Shown here in pieces: positions 18,406 through 32,321 of a stretch of DNA of 32,321 nt. The DNA is taken from the IMG/VR virus record IMGVR_UViG_3300030098_006700, positions 43,582 to 75,902 of that record. The stretch is one strand, 5' to 3'. The stretch is from a virus. How positions within the stretch are numbered: position 1 is the first letter of the stretch; each line of letters starts with the position of its first letter. A model generated the notes under the pieces. The model made no database searches and was not told the origin of the DNA. It saw only the letters and a list, made by a program, of their open reading frames with translations. Both the position numbers and the translations under genes were made by a program.

Positions 18406-19413
18406 ATGAGATTAACTGAGGCACGCCTAAAAGAGATTATTAGAGAAGAAGTTGAACGCCGTTTATTCAATCAATTGGTAGATACTTTAATTGTAGAAGA
18501 ATTAAAGAGAGTGGGGATTGTTGAAGGCAGCGATTCATTCGAGGATTATAAGAAGGCCGCCCGAAAAGCTTTCTTGAAGAAGTTGGTTGCCTGGGGTCTT
18601 CTGGCTTCAGTCGCTGGTGGAATTGGAGCATATGGGCAAATCCAAGCTGATCAGATTTCTGCACAAAATGTTGCAGCTTGGGATCAAAGAGGGGCGGATT
18701 ACGAAGCCTACAAACAAACACCTCAATATGCGTTAGAAGAAATTACAGCCGCCATGAGCCGCCCTAGTAATTATAGTTGGACATTTGGAAGTGAATCTGG
18801 GACGATGCAATCAGCAGACCAGGAAAGCTCAGGAGAAGTGTCGCAGCCAGAAAACTTTCCGCTTTTGCTAGATAAAGATTACGGACAAGTAGGGGTTTTA
18901 TCCCCAGAATATGGAGTTGTGCGGCAGTTATATGATGATGTTTCTGAACAGTTGGCGCAGAGGGATGCCTTAAAAATAGAATTACAACAGATGATCGAAG
19001 AAGTCGAAAACAATGACTCTATAACTATGGATGGTAAGCGCGCACTAATAGAGGAATACACATTAGAAATACAGATTTTAGACGACATGCCTCTAAACCC
19101 AAGTGTGGATTTAGCCATAGAAGGCACAGGCGATGCATCCGAATGGCTGCAGGACTTCCCAGGAAGATATGATCTGCCTGTCACTCCTAATTATGAAGCT
19201 CCTCCGGAGGGCTTGATCCAGGGTGCTTTTGACGCAGGTTTTTCTGGCGATGTGCCAGTTAGCCCACATTACGACGGCATGATTTATTTGCCGTATGATA
19301 ACTTGCCAGAAGATATGATTTTGCCTTTGGCGCAGGAAACACCTTCGGAATATTATATAACTCTGTGGAATGAGTATTTCCCAGACAATCCCATTGAACA
19401 AGAAAGTGAATAA
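18406..19413 (+). CDS. Membrane-anchored protein with IIREE-type N-terminal tag
   Basis: 335 residues, no recognised enzyme domain. The first 20 residues (MRLTEARLKEIIREEV...) match the peptide that opens five other proteins at 24756-27347. A hydrophobic segment at about 57-77 (LLASVAGGIGAYG) could span a membrane. The remainder is acidic, with a likely coiled coil at about 175-225 and a Pro-rich, Asp/Glu-rich end. A GAGGGATT ribosome site precedes the ATG, nine bases after the primase stop. By analogy with T4 internal head proteins, the tag may direct it into the prohead and be cleaved near I-x-E; this is inference. Combining such a tag with a membrane segment is unusual. Confidence 0.65.
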   Translation: MRLTEARLKEIIREEVERRLFNQLVDTLIVEELKRVGIVEGSDSFEDYKKAARKAFLKKLVAWGLLASVAGGIGAYGQIQADQISAQNVAAWDQRGADYEAYKQTPQYALEEITAAMSRPSNYSWTFGSESGTMQSADQESSGEVSQPENFPLLLDKDYGQVGVLSPEYGVVRQLYDDVSEQLAQRDALKIELQQMIEEVENNDSITMDGKRALIEEYTLEIQILDDMPLNPSVDLAIEGTGDASEWLQDFPGRYDLPVTPNYEAPPEGLIQGAFDAGFSGDVPVSPHYDGMIYLPYDNLPEDMILPLAQETPSEYYITLWNEYFPDNPIEQESE

Positions 19414-22500: not shown

Positions 22501-22703
22501 CTAAAGCGGACTTATTTATTCTCGACGAACCGGGTACTGCATTAGACGAAGAAAATATGGAAGGATTTATTCGGATATTGGAACTAATTAAAGTATATTT
22601 TAAGAACGTCCTGCTTATCTCCCACCTTGATTCTCTGAAAGATTGTGTAGATATGCAGATTGTTATTGAAAAATCTAAAGGATATGCGAGGGTAAATCAA
22701 TGA
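19596..22703 (+). CDS. Fused Mre11/SbcD-Rad50/SbcC recombination nuclease (gp47-gp46-like)
   Basis: 1035 residues joining two normally separate proteins. The N-terminal part (about 1-340) is the Mre11/SbcD/gp47 metallophosphoesterase, with D8-x-H10, G43-D44, GNHD (78-81), H148 and GDIH (181-184). The rest is the Rad50/SbcC/gp46 ATPase: Walker A GKNFSGKS (397-404), long coiled coils, a hook with C714 and C721 (C-x6-C rather than C-x2-C), signature MSSGAEK (945-951), Walker B ending D977-E978, and H1010. The complex would resect DNA ends for recombination-dependent replication and possibly degrade host DNA. The start is TTG at 19596, supported by GGGAG at 19585-19589 and by the conserved MKFAHIADTH start. 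Its stop overlaps the next ATG (ATGA). Confidence 0.9.
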   Translation: MKFAHIADTHIKNLKYHYEYNIIFEQLYETLRKEEVDYIVHCGDIAHTKTQISPEFVEMCSQFFKNLAEIAPTYIILGNHDGNLKNSSRQDALTPIVEALDLDDLHLLKESGETHIDDDFCLNVLSVFDRDNWIKPTNTDKINIALYHGSISRCKTDTNWTMTHGEDELSIFNDFDFSMLGDIHRRQFLDEDGRVWYAGSTVQQNHGETNDKGILIWDIKSKDDWEIEPYVLENPKPFFTIPLTLTGRMPRNIEVPKNARLRLVSTNNLPLDSMRRAMDIAKHRFKPESISFLNRAAGERGNVEDITDTLQTENLRDINIQEELIDEYLKDFQVDGDTLEAVYELNRKYNKIVEDNEEISRNVNWKINNFKWDNLFNYGEDNAIDFHSMAGIVGIFGKNFSGKSSIIDAALYTLFNTTSKNERKNLNVINQNKDFGRGEIEIQVGTKRYTITRASEKYIRRLKGEETQEAKTDLNFEVYDETTGETTSLNGTTRNQTDANIRRHFGTVEDFSVSSLASQHGAFSFVDEGSTRRKEIIAKFLDLEVFDQKFKLAKEDSVETKVLLKKNDDRDFDSEIEEVLAQLKKAKKSSTRNQATCARLKEGIVTTEAALASLNMQIESLPAEYINISEAITARDKKSKLLTITTDKIIVDNAAIDAKVEKISRSNELLNSIDIDAIREKKIDADTLQITVTRLKEEMENIDKKKQLLSGIPCGDSFPTCRFIKDAHVAVSSSDLVERDLKQAVDELAAMEVATIDRRLEQYTKITDLVRNLEVELNSLKLRRERNKNASTKLQFELREIQTKIEEYNQNKDVIENLEKLLKQRRGYEEEIELSQAKIVSCEKKTLDLYKQVGSKEERLQSLRDDKLSHLRLRREFAAYDLFMRCMHANGIAYDVIKKKIPVINQEIAKILANIVDFEIFFESNGNKFDIFIKHPQYDERPIEMSSGAEKTMAAMAIRLALLSVSSLPKADLFILDEPGTALDEENMEGFIRILELIKVYFKNVLLISHLDSLKDCVDMQIVIEKSKGYARVNQ

Positions 22704-23593
22704 AAAAACTTTTAGAGAATTGGAGAAGATTTGTTAATGAACAAGAAATCGATAAGGGAGGAATTCGTGCTTTAAATGATCCAAATACCCCTTTGGCTAC
22801 ATATGTGGCAGTACTTAAAAAATATGCGAACGATCCCACATTTGATAGTATAGCCGCTGCTGGGCAAACCGACGGACAACCCGCCGACGAACAAGTTTCT
22901 GTTGATAGAGCTTCTACCCAGGCTGCTAACCTTGTTGCAACACAAGCAGAGATCGGCTTTAGTAATAGTTTGGCAGATCAGATGACCAATCCGCCCTGGA
23001 AGCCGGTTCAAAAAGCCCTTGGTTTGGCTGGCACGCCTATTATCATGCCGAGTACAGACGATCCCCCTCCAGCTATTTTAGTTTGGAATGGGAGATATAT
23101 TCTTGATGGGCACCACCGCTGGTCTCAAGTTATGATGATGAATCCTACTGGAGAAGTGGCTATTGATAATGTCACCGGACCAGCTTTAGATAACGAAGAA
23201 GAAGCGCTTAAAGCCATGCAATTTGCAATTGCGGCAACTTCTGATAAAGTTGTAACAAAGCCATTTAAAGGACAAAACCTTATGCAAGCTAGTGAACAAG
23301 AAGTTGCTCAGTATGTTATGGAAAATATAACAGATGAAGTTTTACAGCTTTTGGTCCAAGCGGGTAAAATTCCAAAGCCCGATAAACAGCTAGCGGCTGA
23401 ATACGTTGCCGGCAATTTACCTGTTATTAAAAGATCTGTTGGTAAATTCTCTCGTGAAAAAAGCATGCCTCAAGCCGGCGCCTCTGGAGTTTCACAAAAT
23501 GCTGTCAATCAAGCACTTGGATCAGGCAAGGTTAATTTCGATCAGCCTAAGCCATCTGATGTGCGCCGCGCCGACGAGCAAAAGCTTAAATAA
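22700..23593 (+). CDS. ParB-like (DGHHRW) protein with MKKLLENW-type N-terminal tag
   Basis: 297 residues. The start, MKKLLENWRRFVNEQ, matches in type the start of the 25121 protein (MKKLFEDWNNYLDKE). Residues about 112-150 include ILVWNGRYILDGHHRW (DGHHRW at 136-141), the core motif of ParB/Srx-fold proteins, which bind nucleotide or nick DNA. The C-terminal half is helical, Gln/Ala/Lys-rich and has no recognised domain. The ATG overlaps the TGA of the nuclease fusion, and the tubulin-like gene begins 11 bases after the stop. The tag suggests packaging in the head, so an injected DNA-acting protein is a reasonable guess; a partition-type partner of the tubulin is an alternative. Neither is shown. 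Confidence 0.65.
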   Translation: MKKLLENWRRFVNEQEIDKGGIRALNDPNTPLATYVAVLKKYANDPTFDSIAAAGQTDGQPADEQVSVDRASTQAANLVATQAEIGFSNSLADQMTNPPWKPVQKALGLAGTPIIMPSTDDPPPAILVWNGRYILDGHHRWSQVMMMNPTGEVAIDNVTGPALDNEEEALKAMQFAIAATSDKVVTKPFKGQNLMQASEQEVAQYVMENITDEVLQLLVQAGKIPKPDKQLAAEYVAGNLPVIKRSVGKFSREKSMPQAGASGVSQNAVNQALGSGKVNFDQPKPSDVRRADEQKLK

Positions 23594-23604
23594 AGGAATA
23601 ACTT

Positions 23605-24744
23605 ATGTCAGGCAAAGATGACAAAAACGAATTTGATTTTCTGCCTCCCGCAGAGCCACCACCCTCCTTTAATCAGGAGAAAGACCACTATCACGAAGAA
23701 GTTGCAGCAGAGGATTTCGGTATGGTCGAGGACTTTGGACTTCAAATGGAATATTCTGATGAAGACCTCCTCCCTGAAAATACCGCTCCATCTTCATTGA
23801 ACGTGGGCTTTGTAGGCGTCGGCGGTGGAGGCAACAAAATGGCCAATGCTTTCATCGAGCTTGGTTTCAATAAAACGTTGCTAGTGAATACCACTGGCAA
23901 AGATATTCCAAAGAACGTCGAAGAAGATCATGTTGTTCTTATTCCAGATTCTGACGGAATCGGAAAGAACACAACATATGGAAAAGAGGTGTTAAGTCAA
24001 AATGGTGCAATTATTGAAGATGCACTGCGAATCAAACTTGGCAAAGTTGATTGGCTTTTTGTTTTTGCTGGCGGTGGTGGTGGCACCGGTAGCTCTGTCT
24101 CTGCTTTGCATCCTGTTTTTGAGCGTTACATGCGCTCCGTTCAGTCTTCTGGCAAAGTCGTTTATGTAGTTTCGTGGCCGACAGCACAAGAAAACCTTAA
24201 CCCCACAATTGCTCGAAATGCTCTCACGCTTGTAAACGACGTTTCGAAACACCCTCACATCGTTCTTGATAACGAAAGATCTACACGTTTACTTCGCGGC
24301 AGAATTGGCATGCTTGGCATGTATCCTGTCGCCAACACACAATTTGCTAAGTCATTTGCCCAAGTTCTCAAACTCTCCACCGAAGACTCACCGATCCAAT
24401 CTTTTGACAGCAAGGATCTAGAGACTTGTTTAGGCAATGACGGTCGCGCCTTTTTGGGTTCGACTATGATTAAAGATCCGAATACTGGAAAGTTGGGATC
24501 GGTGATTCTTCACAATTGCATGAACCGCTCAGCCTGTCCTCCACCGAAGGGCAAGGCTGCGGCAGGTTCTTTAATTTTGGTCGCATCTGAAGAAATGGTT
24601 GCTGACCCGAGAGTAAGTAAACATCTTGAATCAGCTATCGCCTATGTTGGTGGTCGTTGCGAAACACTTTTTTCAGGGGTTTATGTTCGCAAGAATGTCC
24701 CTGGCTTGATTGCAATACTAAGTATGAATGGCTTAGATACATAA
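23605..24744 (+). CDS. Tubulin/FtsZ-family GTPase homologue
   Basis: 379 residues. After an acidic, Pro-rich, probably disordered extension (about 1-63) comes a tubulin/FtsZ nucleotide-binding domain. It has V-G-F-V-G-V-G-G-G-G-N (67-77, loop T1), VNTTGKDI (94-101, T3 region), the signature loop AGGGGGTGSS (155-164, canonical GGGTGTG with the last Gly replaced by Ser), and an IVLDNERSTRLL segment (219-230) like the start of helix H7. The T7 loop appears to be PVANTQFAK (241-249), where FtsZ has N-x-D-x2-D; both acidic positions would be Gln and Lys. A C-terminal beta domain follows. Such proteins form filaments that move DNA or capsids (TubZ, PhuZ). Start ATG 23605 has AAGGAA upstream. Family call firm, function open. 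Confidence 0.82.
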   Translation: MSGKDDKNEFDFLPPAEPPPSFNQEKDHYHEEVAAEDFGMVEDFGLQMEYSDEDLLPENTAPSSLNVGFVGVGGGGNKMANAFIELGFNKTLLVNTTGKDIPKNVEEDHVVLIPDSDGIGKNTTYGKEVLSQNGAIIEDALRIKLGKVDWLFVFAGGGGGTGSSVSALHPVFERYMRSVQSSGKVVYVVSWPTAQENLNPTIARNALTLVNDVSKHPHIVLDNERSTRLLRGRIGMLGMYPVANTQFAKSFAQVLKLSTEDSPIQSFDSKDLETCLGNDGRAFLGSTMIKDPNTGKLGSVILHNCMNRSACPPPKGKAAAGSLILVASEEMVADPRVSKHLESAIAYVGGRCETLFSGVYVRKNVPGLIAILSMNGLDT

Positions 24745-24755
24745 GGAATATTACA

Positions 24756-25121
24756 ATGAAGATCACAAAGAAGCAACTTAGACAGATTATTAAAGAAGAA
24801 CTTAATGCTGTTATTGAGTCTCGCGCCGATCATATCGGCGGGATTGATGCCAAGTTGGATAGGCTTGAAGATGAAATTGAGAGAGCGGAGGATTCGCTGG
24901 GTAGACAAGATGCAAGTGCTGACATGAGCGCTTATGGCGGTTCTGCGTGGGAAACCGAGGCTAACTTGGATGATATCCGTAGTCACCCAAGCTACTTTGA
25001 GACACAACAGAGAATCATGCGCATGCGAGAGAAGATCGATCTTCTTCAAAGTCAATTGGACACCTTAGAGAGCGCCCCAGAAGGCGAATATGTTGGTGAA
25101 CTCCCGAGAGGAGATGGGTGA
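24756..25121 (+). CDS. Small tagged protein (MKITKKQL...IIKEE), coiled-coil body
   Basis: 121 residues from the ATG at 24756. This start is preferred because the AAGGAA ribosome site follows the tubulin stop and because the peptide MKITKKQLRQIIKEELNAV is shared with neighbours; the frame is open upstream to 24657. After the tag the body is acidic and helical, with heptad-like patterns at about 25-45 (L-D-R-L-E-D-E-I-E) and 90-112 (M-R-M-R-E-K-I-D-L-L). No enzyme motif is visible. The stop TGA overlaps the next ATG. It is a candidate internal head protein by the tag only. Confidence 0.65.
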   Translation: MKITKKQLRQIIKEELNAVIESRADHIGGIDAKLDRLEDEIERAEDSLGRQDASADMSAYGGSAWETEANLDDIRSHPSYFETQQRIMRMREKIDLLQSQLDTLESAPEGEYVGELPRGDG

Positions 25122-25516
25122 TGAAAAAGCTATTTGAAGACTGGAACAATTACCTGGACAAAGAAAGCGTTTTAAATGAATCGATAGGGGTAGAAACTGA
25201 AGAACTACTTCGTACAGCCGTCGAAAAAGCGTATAAAGATATGGTTGCCTCTCATCATCCCGAACAGATTTATGCAGACACAGGTGAGCCAGTAGACCCG
25301 GATGCCGCTGCTGAGGCACGCGCACAAATTATGAAGCTTGTTGCATCCTATCTAGAAAATTCATCAGAGTCTGAAGAACAGGAAAAAGACAAGAAAGATG
25401 TATATGAGAAAGGATACAGTGACGGACGGCAGGGTTATAATTTTTCAAGTTCTTATCACGGAGAAATGAAAAAGATATATCTTGATGGAAATCTTGCGGG
25501 TGCGGAAGGTTTATAA
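25121..25516 (+). CDS. Small protein with MKKLFEDW-type N-terminal tag
   Basis: 131 residues from the ATG at 25121, which overlaps the preceding TGA by one base; a GTG one codon earlier is less likely. GAGGAG upstream is a strong ribosome site. The start (MKKLFEDWNNYLDKE) is the same type as that of the ParB-like protein at 22700. The middle is helical and acidic (SESEEQEKDKKD at about 94-105). The C-terminal Y-x-K-G-Y-S-D-G-R-Q-G and Y-L-D-G-N-L-A-G-A motifs look like a small conserved fold. No function is recognised. Confidence 0.62.
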   Translation: MKKLFEDWNNYLDKESVLNESIGVETEELLRTAVEKAYKDMVASHHPEQIYADTGEPVDPDAAAEARAQIMKLVASYLENSSESEEQEKDKKDVYEKGYSDGRQGYNFSSSYHGEMKKIYLDGNLAGAEGL

Positions 25517-25531
25517 AAAGGACATTAAAAG

Positions 25532-25864
25532 ATGAAAATCACAAAGAAACAGCTTAAGGGGCTTATTAAAGAGGAGCTATCAGCAGTCTTGAGAGAGGGG
25601 TATCATCACGGAGAATCTGACTCTTGGGAGGTTGATATAAACGTAGATTATAACAAAGAACCGATTTTGACGTGGGGGATTGGCTTAAAAACATCCACTG
25701 GCGTAAACTCTACTTTGGAGGGTTCTTCAGAAAGTTTGAATTTAGACACCTTGGAAAATGCAATTAGGCAAATCATAAAGACAGAAAGGCTTGATGTGGA
25801 CGAAGCCGATGATTTAAAAGACGCTTTCTATAAAGCTGAAGAAAGTTTTCGCAGAGAGAGATAA
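25532..25864 (+). CDS. Small tagged protein (MKITKKQL...LIKEE)
   Basis: 110 residues. The first 19 residues (MKITKKQLKGLIKEELSAV) repeat the shared tag, followed by a REGYHHGE stretch resembling EGHDEYHEDD in the next protein. The body has a beta-like middle (VDINVDYNKEPILTWGIGL) and a charged helical end, unlike the other tagged proteins. AAAAGGAC upstream provides a ribosome site. No known domain is evident. Confidence 0.62.
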   Translation: MKITKKQLKGLIKEELSAVLREGYHHGESDSWEVDINVDYNKEPILTWGIGLKTSTGVNSTLEGSSESLNLDTLENAIRQIIKTERLDVDEADDLKDAFYKAEESFRRER

Positions 25865-25867
25865 ACC

Positions 25868-26173
25868 ATGAAAATTACAAAGAAACAACTTAAACAACTT
25901 ATTCGCGAACAGGTCGCAACAGTCCTTGAAGGGCACGACGAATATCATGAGGATGATTGGTTTGATATTCTTGCGGGCGAGAGGGGAAGTCCGATTTCTT
26001 TTGATCCTGACGGGACAGAAGCTTCGATGACTCCGAATGAAGAAGTAGAAGCAGAAAACGCTTTGATGGCTGCAGTAGATCAACTAGCCAATGCAGGGTA
26101 TACTCCAGAAGAGATAAGAGATCTACTTATGGACGTCACTCCAGAACAGGGAGACAAGGACAATTCGAAATGA
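25868..26173 (+). CDS. Small tagged protein (MKITKKQL...LIREQ)
   Basis: 101 residues. The coding start is nearly identical at the DNA level to that of the 25532 gene over about 25 bases, with the differences largely at third codon positions. The tag is followed by EGHDEYHEDDW and an acidic body with a C-terminal helix (about 60-90). There are no cysteines and no recognised domain. It starts three bases after the previous stop and overlaps the next gene by four bases (ATGA). Confidence 0.6.
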   Translation: MKITKKQLKQLIREQVATVLEGHDEYHEDDWFDILAGERGSPISFDPDGTEASMTPNEEVEAENALMAAVDQLANAGYTPEEIRDLLMDVTPEQGDKDNSK

Positions 26174-26610
26174 AAATCTCCAAGTCCAGACTTAAGGAAA
26201 TTATTAAAGAAGAGGTTGAGAGTAATAAAGCTTTGATCTCTGCTATCGAGAGCCTATCAGGCAAAATTGATAGTTTAGATGTTAGTATCGATTTCTTGGC
26301 TGCAGCTTTTATTGGCGGTGATCCGCTTTCAATTGGCGCCGCACAAAAGAGCCTTGGCAGAGCTTATCGTCCCGTGGTAAAAACTCCACAACAAGTGGAC
26401 GAAGGATACGGAGATCGCCCCGCCTGGGAAGACGACGCCAGTCATCCTGATTATGTAGATCCTAAAGAGGTATGTCCAGAGATACGGAAAATGATAGAGG
26501 AGCGTCAGGCAACTTTAAGTGATGGCAGTCTGCCAGAAGATAAAGCCCTCGAAGTCCAAAATCAAATCGATGTTCTTGAAGAGATTGCCACGATGAGAGG
26601 CTGCAAATAA
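26170..26610 (+). CDS. Small tagged protein (MKISKSRL...IIKEE)
   Basis: 146 residues. The tag MKISKSRLKEIIKEEVES is followed by a helical segment (LISAIESLSGKIDSLDVSI) and a linker. An acidic C-terminal helix region contains two cysteines (C-P-E-I-R near residue 103, and the penultimate residue). The gene overlaps both neighbours (ATGA at the start, TAATG at the end), so it is translated with them. Function not recognised. Confidence 0.6.
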   Translation: MKISKSRLKEIIKEEVESNKALISAIESLSGKIDSLDVSIDFLAAAFIGGDPLSIGAAQKSLGRAYRPVVKTPQQVDEGYGDRPAWEDDASHPDYVDPKEVCPEIRKMIEERQATLSDGSLPEDKALEVQNQIDVLEEIATMRGCK

Positions 26611-27347
26611 TGAACATTACCAAGCAGAGATTAATCGAGATCATCAAAGAAGAAGTCTTGGCTGAAGGTCACGACGACGCGCGAATGATTTCCCCTGAAG
26701 AAATGGAAGAAGCTAGGAAATTGCATGCAAAATTGGAAGCCATTGATAACATGTTAGCTGTGATTGATCCGCAGGTTGCGATTTCAGCGCTGAAGGGTGC
26801 TGGCGCCAAAGTTGGTGACAAGCTCATGTATGTTCTACGGTCATTAAGTTCAGAAGGGAGAACTGCTAAGTTGGATGAATCTGGTGGTGTCGCTGGCAAT
26901 TTTGGTGGTGCAGCAATGGAATTGGGCGCCCAGCGCGCTAGCGGCAATGACATGCCCGATCATGACTTATACGGACCACAACAGACAGCAGAAGACAACT
27001 TTGTTGGCATTTTAATTGATATTGGTCGCATGCTTGATATATGGGAGCAGAAAGAATACCCATCCGATGAAGCAAGATATATGAGCTACTTTGAGGATCT
27101 TCAGGGTTTATTGGAACAATATGATCCTTGCGCGCATGTCGGACAAAAATGTGAAGACAATCACCCAAATCAAAGTCACGAAGAATGTATAGAAGTGACA
27201 ATTAATAATGCACTGTACGAGGTTTCCTCTGAGAAACAAAGAAGATATATGTGTGCAATGAAAGATGCATCGGCTAACAAACGACCAAAAGGCTTGTCGA
27301 AGGCTGAAGCAGAAGAAATGTGTAAATCAAAAGTGGAGGATAAATGA
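26610..27347 (+). CDS. Tagged protein with Cys/His-rich C-terminus (245 aa)
   Basis: The largest member of the 24756-27347 tagged run. The tag MNITKQRLIEIIKEEVLAEGH is followed by a helical domain (about 28-80). A Gly-rich segment follows (SGGVAGNFGGAAMELG, about 91-106), then an acidic helix at about 130-170. The C-terminal region has five cysteines (174, 181, 193, 215, 238) and two histidines (185, 190), suggesting metal binding or disulphides. It overlaps the preceding stop by one base and the next start. No known family is recognised. Confidence 0.62.
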   Translation: MNITKQRLIEIIKEEVLAEGHDDARMISPEEMEEARKLHAKLEAIDNMLAVIDPQVAISALKGAGAKVGDKLMYVLRSLSSEGRTAKLDESGGVAGNFGGAAMELGAQRASGNDMPDHDLYGPQQTAEDNFVGILIDIGRMLDIWEQKEYPSDEARYMSYFEDLQGLLEQYDPCAHVGQKCEDNHPNQSHEECIEVTINNALYEVSSEKQRRYMCAMKDASANKRPKGLSKAEAEEMCKSKVEDK

Positions 27348-29277: not shown

Positions 29278-30861
29278 ATGACTTTTCAATTAGACAAGAA
29301 ACAAAGAGTAAAGGAAATATTAAAGTGCGGTAAGGATCCTGCTTACTTCTTGAAGACGTATGCCCGTATATCACACCCGATGCACGGGCTTATTCTTTTC
29401 AATACATATGATTTTCAAGATCAGCTTCTCGCAGACTTTAATGACCATCGCTTTAATGTAATCCTCAAGGCACGCCAGCTTGGTATTTCTACAATTACCG
29501 CTGGCTATATTGTATGGATGATGCTTTTCCATCGCGATAAAGCCGTGCTTGTCATGGCTACCAAATTCGCTACAGCAGGAAACTTGGTCAACAAGGTCAA
29601 GAAGATCATGAAGAACCTTCCAGATTGGATTCGAATCGCAGATATTGATATTGATAATAGAACGTCGTTTATGCTCTCCAATGGCTCTTCAATCAAAGCT
29701 GCTTCCACTTCTGGCGATGCTGGTCGTTCGGAAGCTTTGTCGCTTTTGGTTCTTGACGAGGCGGCACACATTGAGGGTTTGGAGGAATTATGGACAGGTT
29801 TGTATCCGACACTTTCGACAGGTGGTCGTTGTATCGCACTTTCGACTCCAAACGGCGTTGGTAATTGGTTTCATAAGACGTGTACAGACGCAGAAGCTGG
29901 AGCGAATAATTTTCACCTGACAACACTTATGTGGGATGTGCATCCTGAAAGGGATGAAGAGTGGTTTAAAAAAGAAACCAGGAACATGTCCAAACGACAG
30001 ATTGCGCAAGAGCTTGAATGCAATTTCAATACATCTGGCGACACTGTTATAGATCCAGAAGATATGGGATGGTTGTTGTCGCAGTGCAAAGAACCAAAGT
30101 ATCGTACTGGATTTGATCGCAATTTTTGGATTTGGGAAGAGTTTGATCCGACCTGTAATTATTTGATGGTTGCAGACGTTGCGCGAGGAGATGGCGAAGA
30201 CTTCTCGACGTTTCACATAATTAAGTTAGAAACGGTGGAAGCAATAGGGGAATATCAAGGAAAACCCACTCCCGATATGTTCGCTAATATGCTTAATCAA
30301 GTCGGTAGAGAATTCGGCGGATGTATGCTGGTTGTAGAAAATAACAATATTGGCTACACAGTTCTTGATAAGCTGATAGAATATCAGTATCCAAATTTAT
30401 ATTATTCGATTAAGTCAACACATGAATATATTGAGCAGCATCAAGCTGAAGTCCGCAATTCAGCAGTTCCTGGCTTTTCAACCAGCATGAAGACGCGCCC
30501 TCTCATCATTGCGAAATTAGAGGAGTTTATAAGAAACAAACTAATTAAGTTATATTCTTCGCGTACTGTTAATGAAATGAAGACTTTTATATGGAGGAAC
30601 GGCAAGCCGCAAGCAATGAAAGGTTATCATGATGATTTGGTTATGGCATTGGCTATAGCATGCTGGGTGAGAGATACAGCCTTGCAGGCAAACGCGCGTG
30701 AATTAAATTATCAAAAAGCTTTCGTGGATGCGATCATTACATCTAAAACCACAATAAATACCCAGATTGCCGGCCAACATGGATATAAAAAGGATAATAT
30801 TATGGACAAGCAACTTGACGCTCAAAAAATGTACGATCAATTTAAATGGATTATAAAGTGA
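29278..30861 (+). CDS. Terminase large subunit (T4 gp17-like)
   Basis: 527 residues. The ATPase domain has a Walker A variant KARQLGIST (64-72), Walker B LLVLDE (156-161, D160/E161) and coupling motif ALSTPNG (187-193). The RNase H-fold nuclease domain follows, with D300 (MVADVARGD), E354 (LVVENNN) and D452/D453 (YHDDLVMAL). It pumps genomic DNA into proheads through the portal and cuts the concatemer. Gene order (terminase, then portal after 8 bases) and motifs are those of T4-type phages, although T4 gp17 is longer (about 610 residues). Another ATG at 29271 is out of frame. No strong ribosome site is seen, so coupling to the upstream gene is likely. Confidence 0.93.
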   Translation: MTFQLDKKQRVKEILKCGKDPAYFLKTYARISHPMHGLILFNTYDFQDQLLADFNDHRFNVILKARQLGISTITAGYIVWMMLFHRDKAVLVMATKFATAGNLVNKVKKIMKNLPDWIRIADIDIDNRTSFMLSNGSSIKAASTSGDAGRSEALSLLVLDEAAHIEGLEELWTGLYPTLSTGGRCIALSTPNGVGNWFHKTCTDAEAGANNFHLTTLMWDVHPERDEEWFKKETRNMSKRQIAQELECNFNTSGDTVIDPEDMGWLLSQCKEPKYRTGFDRNFWIWEEFDPTCNYLMVADVARGDGEDFSTFHIIKLETVEAIGEYQGKPTPDMFANMLNQVGREFGGCMLVVENNNIGYTVLDKLIEYQYPNLYYSIKSTHEYIEQHQAEVRNSAVPGFSTSMKTRPLIIAKLEEFIRNKLIKLYSSRTVNEMKTFIWRNGKPQAMKGYHDDLVMALAIACWVRDTALQANARELNYQKAFVDAIITSKTTINTQIAGQHGYKKDNIMDKQLDAQKMYDQFKWIIK

Positions 30862-30869
30862 GAAAATAA

Positions 30870-32321
30870 ATGCCACCTAATAGAAATGGAAAAAACCCCG
30901 CCAACGCACAGTCAGCCTTATTTAAAGCGCTGACTAGGCTCTTTTCTGGGCCAATTATTAATTATCGGTCTCAATCTGGTAGACGAATTCGCAGACAGCA
31001 TCTTGACAAGTTTGGCTCTCGATTTAAATCCGCCTCTGGTCAACAGTTTAAAAAGTCCTTATACAATCCTCTGGATGTCGTGGCCACAGATGCTATCGCA
31101 AATCAACGCAGAACAGAGCGTTATGTTGATTTCGACCAGATGGAATATATGCCTGAAATTGCTTCTGCTCTGGACATCTATGCAGACGAAATGACCACTT
31201 ATTCTCAATTGAGACCGATGCTGAATGTTCGCTGCCCCAATGAAGAAATCAAAGCCGTACTTACTATTCTCTTTGATCAAGTTTTAAATATTCAATATAA
31301 TCTTTTTGGTTGGAGTCGCACCATGTGTAAATATGGTGACTTTTTCTTATACCTAGATATTGATGACAAGTATGGTGTTAAATCGGTTATTGCTCTTCCT
31401 CCACAAGAGATTGAAAGATTAGAAGGAAAAGACGCAACCAATCCAAATTATGTCCAATATCAGTGGAATTCCGCTGGTATGACTTTCGAGAATTGGCAGA
31501 TGTGCCATTTCCGTATTTTAGGGAATGACAAATACATGCCATATGGTTCTTCTATTATGGAGCCTGCACGTCGTATCTGGCGCCAGCTTACACTAATGGA
31601 AGATGCCATGATGGCGTATCGAGTTGTGCGCTCATCTGAACGTCGTGTGTTTAAGATTGACGTTGGTGCAATTCCTCCACAAGATGTAGAGCAGTACATG
31701 CAAAAGATTGTAACGCAGCTTAAGCGACATTCTGTTGTCGATCCTAAAACGGGACATTTGGACCTTCGTTATAATCCAATGAGTATTGAAGAGGATTATT
31801 TCATCCCTGTTCGTGCTGGTTCTGCCACAGAGATTCAATCCCTCGCAGGCGCACAAAACATCACAGCGATTGACGACATTAAGTATTTGCGCGATAAGCT
31901 GTTTTCTGCTCTTAAGATTCCTGCCGCATATCTTTCGATGGGCGAGGAGGCCGCAGAAGACAAGACAACCCTCGCACAGAAAGACATTCGTTTCGCGAGA
32001 ACAGTACAGAGACTCCAGAGAGTTATTATTGCAGAACTCACAAAGATTGGTATTATCCATCTTTATACGCTTGGATTCCGAGGTGATGATCTTCTTGGGT
32101 TTGATTTAACTCTTAATAACCCTTCCAAAATTGCCGAGCTTCAAGAGCTTGAGCACTGGAAACAAAAGTTCGATATCGCCGCCTCGGCAACTGAAGGCTA
32201 TTTCTCTCGTCGGTGGGTAACCGAACACATCTTCGGAATGTCTAATGAGGAATTTGTGCGTAATCAGCGAGAAATGTATTATGATCGCAAGCAAGACGCG
32301 GCCCTTCAGGCAGTTGCTGAA
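30870..32321 (+). CDS. Portal protein (T4 gp20-like), 3' end outside window
   Basis: ATG at 30870, open to the last base: 484 codons with no stop, so the gene continues right. The sequence matches the T4 portal family in pattern: YNPLDVVATDAIANQRRTERY near 70-90, MPEIASALDIYADE near 95-110, the conserved core with MPYGSSIMEPARRIWRQ (about 225-241), EDYFIPVR, and LKIPAAYLSMGEE (about 349-361). The dodecameric portal forms the vertex ring through which terminase loads DNA and to which the neck attaches. T4 gp20 has about 524 residues, so little more than a C-terminal tail is probably missing. It starts 8 bases after the terminase stop. Confidence 0.92.
   Translation, partial: MPPNRNGKNPANAQSALFKALTRLFSGPIINYRSQSGRRIRRQHLDKFGSRFKSASGQQFKKSLYNPLDVVATDAIANQRRTERYVDFDQMEYMPEIASALDIYADEMTTYSQLRPMLNVRCPNEEIKAVLTILFDQVLNIQYNLFGWSRTMCKYGDFFLYLDIDDKYGVKSVIALPPQEIERLEGKDATNPNYVQYQWNSAGMTFENWQMCHFRILGNDKYMPYGSSIMEPARRIWRQLTLMEDAMMAYRVVRSSERRVFKIDVGAIPPQDVEQYMQKIVTQLKRHSVVDPKTGHLDLRYNPMSIEEDYFIPVRAGSATEIQSLAGAQNITAIDDIKYLRDKLFSALKIPAAYLSMGEEAAEDKTTLAQKDIRFARTVQRLQRVIIAELTKIGIIHLYTLGFRGDDLLGFDLTLNNPSKIAELQELEHWKQKFDIAASATEGYFSRRWVTEHIFGMSNEEFVRNQREMYYDRKQDAALQAVAE

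Follow-up and report, generated by a model that had tools for sequence, protein, structure and literature searches.

A recurrent N-terminal leader on proteins with differing bodies is a probable capsid-targeting propeptide in uncultured T4-like viruses

In the record IMGVR_UViG_3300030098_006700 (86,978 bases), from a T4-like marine virus, six open reading frames with differing bodies begin with the same short peptide, M-K-[IL]-[TS]-x3-L-x2-[IL]-I-[KR]-E (leader A), which very probably is a capsid-targeting propeptide for a mosaic set of head cargo proteins and would be cut by the virus's own S77 prohead protease; a second leader (leader B) would do the same job. All six lie in bases 43582-75902 of the record, the 32,321-nucleotide stretch of DNA that was analyzed here (the window; coordinates are window positions unless given as record positions, and genes are named by their first base). 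The original prediction that the repeated peptide is a head-packaging tag is supported by the sequence on several counts: an S77 protease is encoded in the genome, the leader contains [LI]-x-E, the bodies as a class avoid this motif, homology between bodies has junctions at it, leaders are exchanged, and leader genes occur in the neighborhood of the protease and terminase genes.

The shared N-terminal pattern was confirmed in all six reading frames (18406, 24756, 25532, 25868, 26170, and 26610), each of which has an ATG start, a purine-rich stretch upstream, and I-[KR]-E at residues 12-14. All are on the plus strand. The gene at 18406..19413 encodes a 335-aa protein that begins with MRLTEARLKEIIRE/EV... 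(slashes mark putative cut sites) and has a hydrophobic stretch near residues 63-79 and many further [LI]xE sites. The remaining five encode a 121-aa protein with a coiled-coil body, whose sole [LI]xE is at residue 14 in the leader (24756..25121); a 110-aa protein with [LI]xE only at residues 14 and 22 (LRE/G; 25532..25864); a 101-aa protein with its sole [LI]xE at residue 14 (25868..26173); a 146-aa protein whose body module has 13 matches in relatives, mostly in leader-bearing genes (26170..26610); and a 245-aa protein whose body (GGVAGNFGG...) follows LDE-90 and has a Cys-containing C terminus (26610..27347). In relatives, the 26610 body is found behind different leaders and inserts. The bodies had been described as diverging completely, but across viruses they are not entirely unrelated, the 26170 and 26610 modules being fused in one relative (L131). 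All members of the predicted run of five leader-A proteins are present, but gene 25118 inside the run bears leader B, as does gene 22700. Leader A continues past the window into the head-gene operon, where three more genes were found in the record, at 78687, at 79112 (where the peptide recurs at the C terminus as INKDDLYGIIEEEL), and, in a looser form, at 81458. The 312-aa protein of the second of these (record 79112-80050; L009:4113-5051) and that at L328:429 have leader-A-like helices at both termini and are encoded near an S77 protease; for T4 Alt, processing at both ends has been reported (PMC9026906). Relatives of 18406 and of the 312-aa protein were sought in viral contigs, and none was found beyond a near-identical contig.

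A chance origin of the repeated leader is negligible. A relaxed leader-A pattern, in which Glu14 was not required, gave 85 matches at open reading frame starts in the loci of related viruses, 77 of them with Glu14, compared with 22 internal matches in 306,477 residues, one of them with Glu at position 14; a reversed control pattern gave no match in 44 large viral contigs. Among the six window copies, 63 of 131 same-residue codon pairs are different codons, and differences by codon position number 118 (third), 74 (first), and 44 (second), so it is the peptide and not the DNA that is conserved. The proposal that the copies differ largely at third positions is thus only partly right and too strongly put. 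In the profile drawn from S77 loci, Glu14 and Ile/Leu at residue 12 are both invariant (100%), and the hydrophobic positions 8, 11, and 12 come close to Glu14 in conservation. Residue 15 varies among Glu, Ala, Ser, and Gln. The leader is predicted, with low confidence, to be a helix, and an [LI]-x-E cleavage motif closes it, as in the T4-type capsid-targeted internal proteins. The predicted cut does not follow residue 14 in every case. A second [LI]xE is common, ending at residues 18-22 in many members or lying farther along; of 398 leader proteins, 229 have one within residues 17-34, compared with 338 of 1050 other genes. Propeptides with redundant cleavage sites have been described in phiKZ (PMC9026906) and SPN3US (PMC10052503).

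Leader B follows MKxLxExW-x-x-[FY]-[LV]-x-E (consensus MKLLxENWRxFLxE) and opens four genes in the 87-kb record, two in the window and two outside it (record 77822 and 80637). The gene at 22700..23593 (plus strand) encodes a 297-aa protein, MKKLLENWRRFVNE/QE..., with a DGHHRW motif, which is kept in all four 22700 homologs and which resembles, by motif rather than by a database match, ParB/sulfiredoxin-like domains or active sites. One homolog (L462:2674-3963), about 46-49% identical, also starts with leader B and is encoded two genes past the S77 protease gene. The gene at 25118..25516 (plus strand; GTG start at 25118 or ATG at 25121) encodes a 132-aa protein, MMKKLFEDWNNYLDKESVLNE/SIG..., whose homolog L027:511-888 has leader A, the likeness beginning at L-x-E/SI. 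Leaders A and B are also found on homologous bodies in other viruses. Judged from these alignments, leaders A and B are swapped on one body, that of window gene 25118 included.

The absence of a gp21-type prohead protease from the genome had been named as a finding that would count against the packaging tag. The record encodes such a protease at 80054-80659 (PF03420 Peptidase_S77, E=1.2e-34; phrog_207 head maturation protease, 2.6e-56), just outside the window and ten kilobases past the leader run, with leader genes on both sides. The gene order of the record is T4-like (terminase, portal position, protease), and scaffold and gp23-like capsid protein genes come next in relatives. Downstream of the leader run, on the plus strand, are a T4-type large terminase gene (29278..30861; PF03237, phrog_2 E=4e-52) and, by gene order compared with T4 and immuto, the start of a gene in the gp20 (portal) position (30870..32321), which runs past the window toward the head operon and the S77 gene. 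Directly upstream of the run is a plus-strand gene for an FtsZ/tubulin-like GTPase (23605..24744; PF00091, E=6e-10), a neighbor of the leader genes rather than cargo; the same neighbor is found in relatives, and its similarity to PhuZ is weak (E=0.05). The major capsid protein (MCP) of relatives is gp23-like, with a predicted propeptide end, ...KELLRE/SS, that aligns to the T4 gp23 propeptide region. The N terminus of T4 gp24 is MAKINELLRES, which is cut after the Glu (MAKINELLRE/S). Among 38 S77 loci with sufficient flanking sequence, a leader gene was found at most 2.5 kb upstream of the protease in 26. Past the terminase and portal genes, further leader genes occur 7-10 kb upstream of the protease, and the 10 kb downstream of it contain only one.

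Several other features of the head operon and the record were observed. Within the head operon, record 81865-82128 (L009:6866-7129) encodes a bS21-like protein that is small and basic; in Microcystis phage Mel-JY01, RpsU is annotated at the matching place. A C-terminal motif, W/M-x-x-LAG-[IVL], ends scaffold proteins and some other head-operon proteins (49 genes at 43 loci, including the scaffolds of L132, L133, L226, and L227) and is possibly a C-terminal counterpart of the leaders. Adjacent structural genes at record 82585-86978 (L009:7586-11979) share the C-terminal sequence SIxLYxNGxxxF..., which looks like repetition of a single tail module. At about 9-22 kb of the record (L005 and L006), a sugar-nucleotide gene cluster (NeuB-like, dehydratase/reductase-like, and glycosyltransferase genes) suggests surface-glycan synthesis.

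Bodies that share a compartment with the protease should avoid its site. In a blind scan, every ordered residue pair was therefore counted against its mirror in leader-A bodies, after removal of redundancy, with the remaining genes of these loci as the reference. Avoidance in leader-A bodies was strongest for [LI]-x-E (383 compared with 599 for the mirror; other genes, 3027 compared with 2866; p=6.5e-13, the next best pair reaching 7.6e-5). With single residues and counting only after residue 34, L-x-E still ranked first of 1,938 tests (5.7e-9). Leader-B bodies behaved similarly (61 compared with 102, p=4.5e-4), and the two main groups were concordant, with [LI]xE ratios for leader bodies and others of 0.61 and 1.05 in one and 0.62 and 1.02 in the other. 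The depletion was not significant in the giant-phage or the cell-MAG subset (ratio 0.89 each), and the six nonredundant leader bodies of the record itself had no group-level depletion (14 compared with 15). In the T4 internal proteins IPI, IPII, and IPIII, [LI]xE occurs once per protein, inside the propeptide, whereas T4 gp22 has 16 compared with 6 for the mirror, and the S77 protease family itself is enriched about 5:1. Folded head proteins (MCP and portal), taken as a positive control, were not depleted, which argues that avoidance marks exposed cargo and not every head protein. In the window, 24756, 25532, 25868, 22700, and 25118 have no [LI]xE past the leader region and, by this measure, fit retained cargo.

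The place at which homology between bodies begins also points to the cleavage site. Fifty independent pairs of leader proteins with upstream parts unlike in length or class were compared. A shared [LIVM]-x-E was found near the homology start in 12 of them, compared with 3.4 expected (p=1e-4), and exactly at it in 8; neither the mirror motif nor Asp, Gln, or Lys at P1 was enriched there. In the 26610 family, leaders and inserts of varied length precede a shared body that starts with [x]E/[ASY]-G-[GS]-[VA]. Homology between differently led proteins tends to start at [LIVM]-x-E.

The leader proteins are small (median whole protein, 120 aa), and their bodies are fast-changing and mostly without Pfam matches. 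The window leader proteins gave no reliable body-family match in Pfam or PHROG, and the predicted structures were too poor to use (pLDDT 36 for 22700 and 52 for 26610). Eighty long leader proteins have nothing in common but the leader, and in a set of 80 of the longest, individual proteins match kinase-like AAA_33, GNAT acetyltransferase, and pentapeptide repeats.

These observations bear on three other explanations. The leader proteins could belong to the prohead core, being scaffold-like proteins of the gp67/gp68/gp22 kind that are chopped and expelled during maturation rather than retained and injected. Some leader genes do occupy the gp67/gp68 position between portal and protease, and the 312-aa leader protein with leader-like helices at both ends adjoins the protease. 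Furthermore, several [LI]xE sites remain in each of 18406, 26170, and 26610, and these three may be partly processed or core proteins, some of them perhaps degraded and not retained as cargo. However, proteins known to be degraded are rich in sites, as gp22 and the S77 family illustrate, whereas the leader bodies, taken as a class, show depletion, and some bodies are enzyme-like or have repeat folds. We therefore consider a core role for the leader proteins unlikely, though it retains appreciable weight.

If the leader were instead only a docking helix that binds scaffold or shell and remains uncut on the mature protein, the near-equal conservation of positions 8, 11, and 12 and of Glu14, and the predicted helix, would be accounted for, but the avoidance of [LI]xE in bodies, the homology starts at the site, and the extra site at residues 18-22 would be left unexplained, and we regard docking alone as improbable. 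Less probable still, to a degree that makes it hardly credible, is a leader unrelated to the head that addresses proteins elsewhere (the FtsZ/tubulin-like filament or the membrane) or serves expression: a tubulin-like gene does adjoin the leader run, but leader genes lie beside the protease and terminase genes and bear protease-site signatures, leader A interchanges with leader B, which is itself found beside the protease, and the copies vary synonymously, which indicates that the peptide and not the DNA is conserved.

To gauge how widely the leader occurs, we searched for the leader-A DNA pattern, which gave at least 120 stretches in IMG/VR viral contigs and 16 stretches in 84,980 cellular genomes. 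Because an S77 protease was found in two of five checked cellular genomes with a leader-A match, some of the matches in MAGs are probably viral contigs. Three cellular stretches (L210, L211, and L224) were rejected as leader loci because they contain no convincing leader gene and look like chance matches. Large leader-bearing contigs have up to ten copies of leader A, almost always on the same strand, and 1 of 20 random large viral contigs has leader A. Of 24 large leader-bearing contigs, 20 have an S77 protease, but so do 12 of 20 random large contigs, which makes co-occurrence weak evidence by itself; one S77-negative leader contig is probably a fragment because it has leader sequences in common with an S77-positive contig. 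A tblastn search of cultured phages with a 20-residue leader consensus was uninformative (1 and 0 matches).

Taken together, we propose that leader A acts as a propeptide as follows. A short amphipathic leader helix would dock the nascent protein into the prohead core, and the S77 prohead protease would cut after [LI]-x-E in or just behind the leader, at residue 14 and often at a second site near residues 18-22. The mature head would then keep the body together with the DNA; only the T4 analogy suggests that the body is injected into the host and acts on its functions. Leader B would play the same role, A and B being exchanged on the same bodies. More tentatively, with chances that we put a little short of even, head-targeting leaders may serve as adaptors in many uncultured T4-like viruses, each having two or more that are interchangeable, such that any gene gaining a leader would become virion cargo, its body evolving away from the protease site; hundreds of injected effectors, mostly unknown, would make up a mosaic cargo pool and could be identified from sequence alone. 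Host defenses first encounter the proteins that arrive with the phage DNA, yet these are small, orphan, and usually unannotated. The leader together with the site-avoidance signature would allow candidate virion cargo to be listed across thousands of uncultured T4-like viruses, and the leaders would supply new short packaging signals and would test the generality of the T4 targeting-sequence principle, each lineage having its own leader with cargo swapped behind it.

The closest known counterpart is the T4 capsid-targeting sequence (CTS) of IPI, IPII, and IPIII, in which gp21 cuts after L/I-x-E (PMC9026906). For IPIII, the first ten residues are enough for packaging, and an Asp replacing the P1 Glu blocks cutting and leaves targeting unaffected (PMC9026906). 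Like the CTS, leader A is a short N-terminal peptide on unrelated small bodies that ends in [LI]-x-E in a genome with an S77 protease; T4 internal protein bodies are free of further sites, and leader-A bodies are depleted in them as a class, though not in the giant-phage and cell-MAG subsets and with sites retained in 18406, 26170, and 26610. That the leader would work like the CTS is, on these comparisons, well supported. The differences are also clear: leader A spans 14-22 residues with its own consensus and has no clear likeness to the CTS (MKTYQEFIAE) beyond the cleavage motif, which by sequence places it outside the T4 CTS family, it coexists and is exchanged with a second leader, it occurs in up to ten copies per genome, and its genes adjoin the terminase and protease genes, whereas the T4 ip genes lie elsewhere. 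Leader B loosely resembles the CTS in its F-[LV]-x-E end. In relation to the T4 core proteins gp67, gp68, and gp22, some leader genes are at the gp67/gp68 position just upstream of the protease, but the scaffold gp22 is rich in cleavage sites, which leader bodies as a class avoid. The ejection proteins of phiKZ and SPN3US have N-terminal propeptides with several cleavage sites that a gp21-like protease removes, as is proposed for the leaders, but these propeptides are mostly long (111-254 residues in SPN3US), end in S/A-x-E or A-x-E, and are not described in these reports as a repeated peptide common to unrelated proteins (PMC10052503, PMC9026906). No earlier description of leader A was found in the open-access literature, the scope of our search. 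In cultured Flavobacterium phage immuto, which has an S77 protease, three unrelated proteins have a common leader, F[DN]L[KR]xFL[VT]EN[KR]LT...[LI][KN]E, that differs in sequence from leader A; of the three genes, two lie just upstream of the terminase gene (L226:7936-9236, L468:1803-2318). Overall, the leader system is apparently a new, undescribed variant of the T4 targeting-sequence principle.
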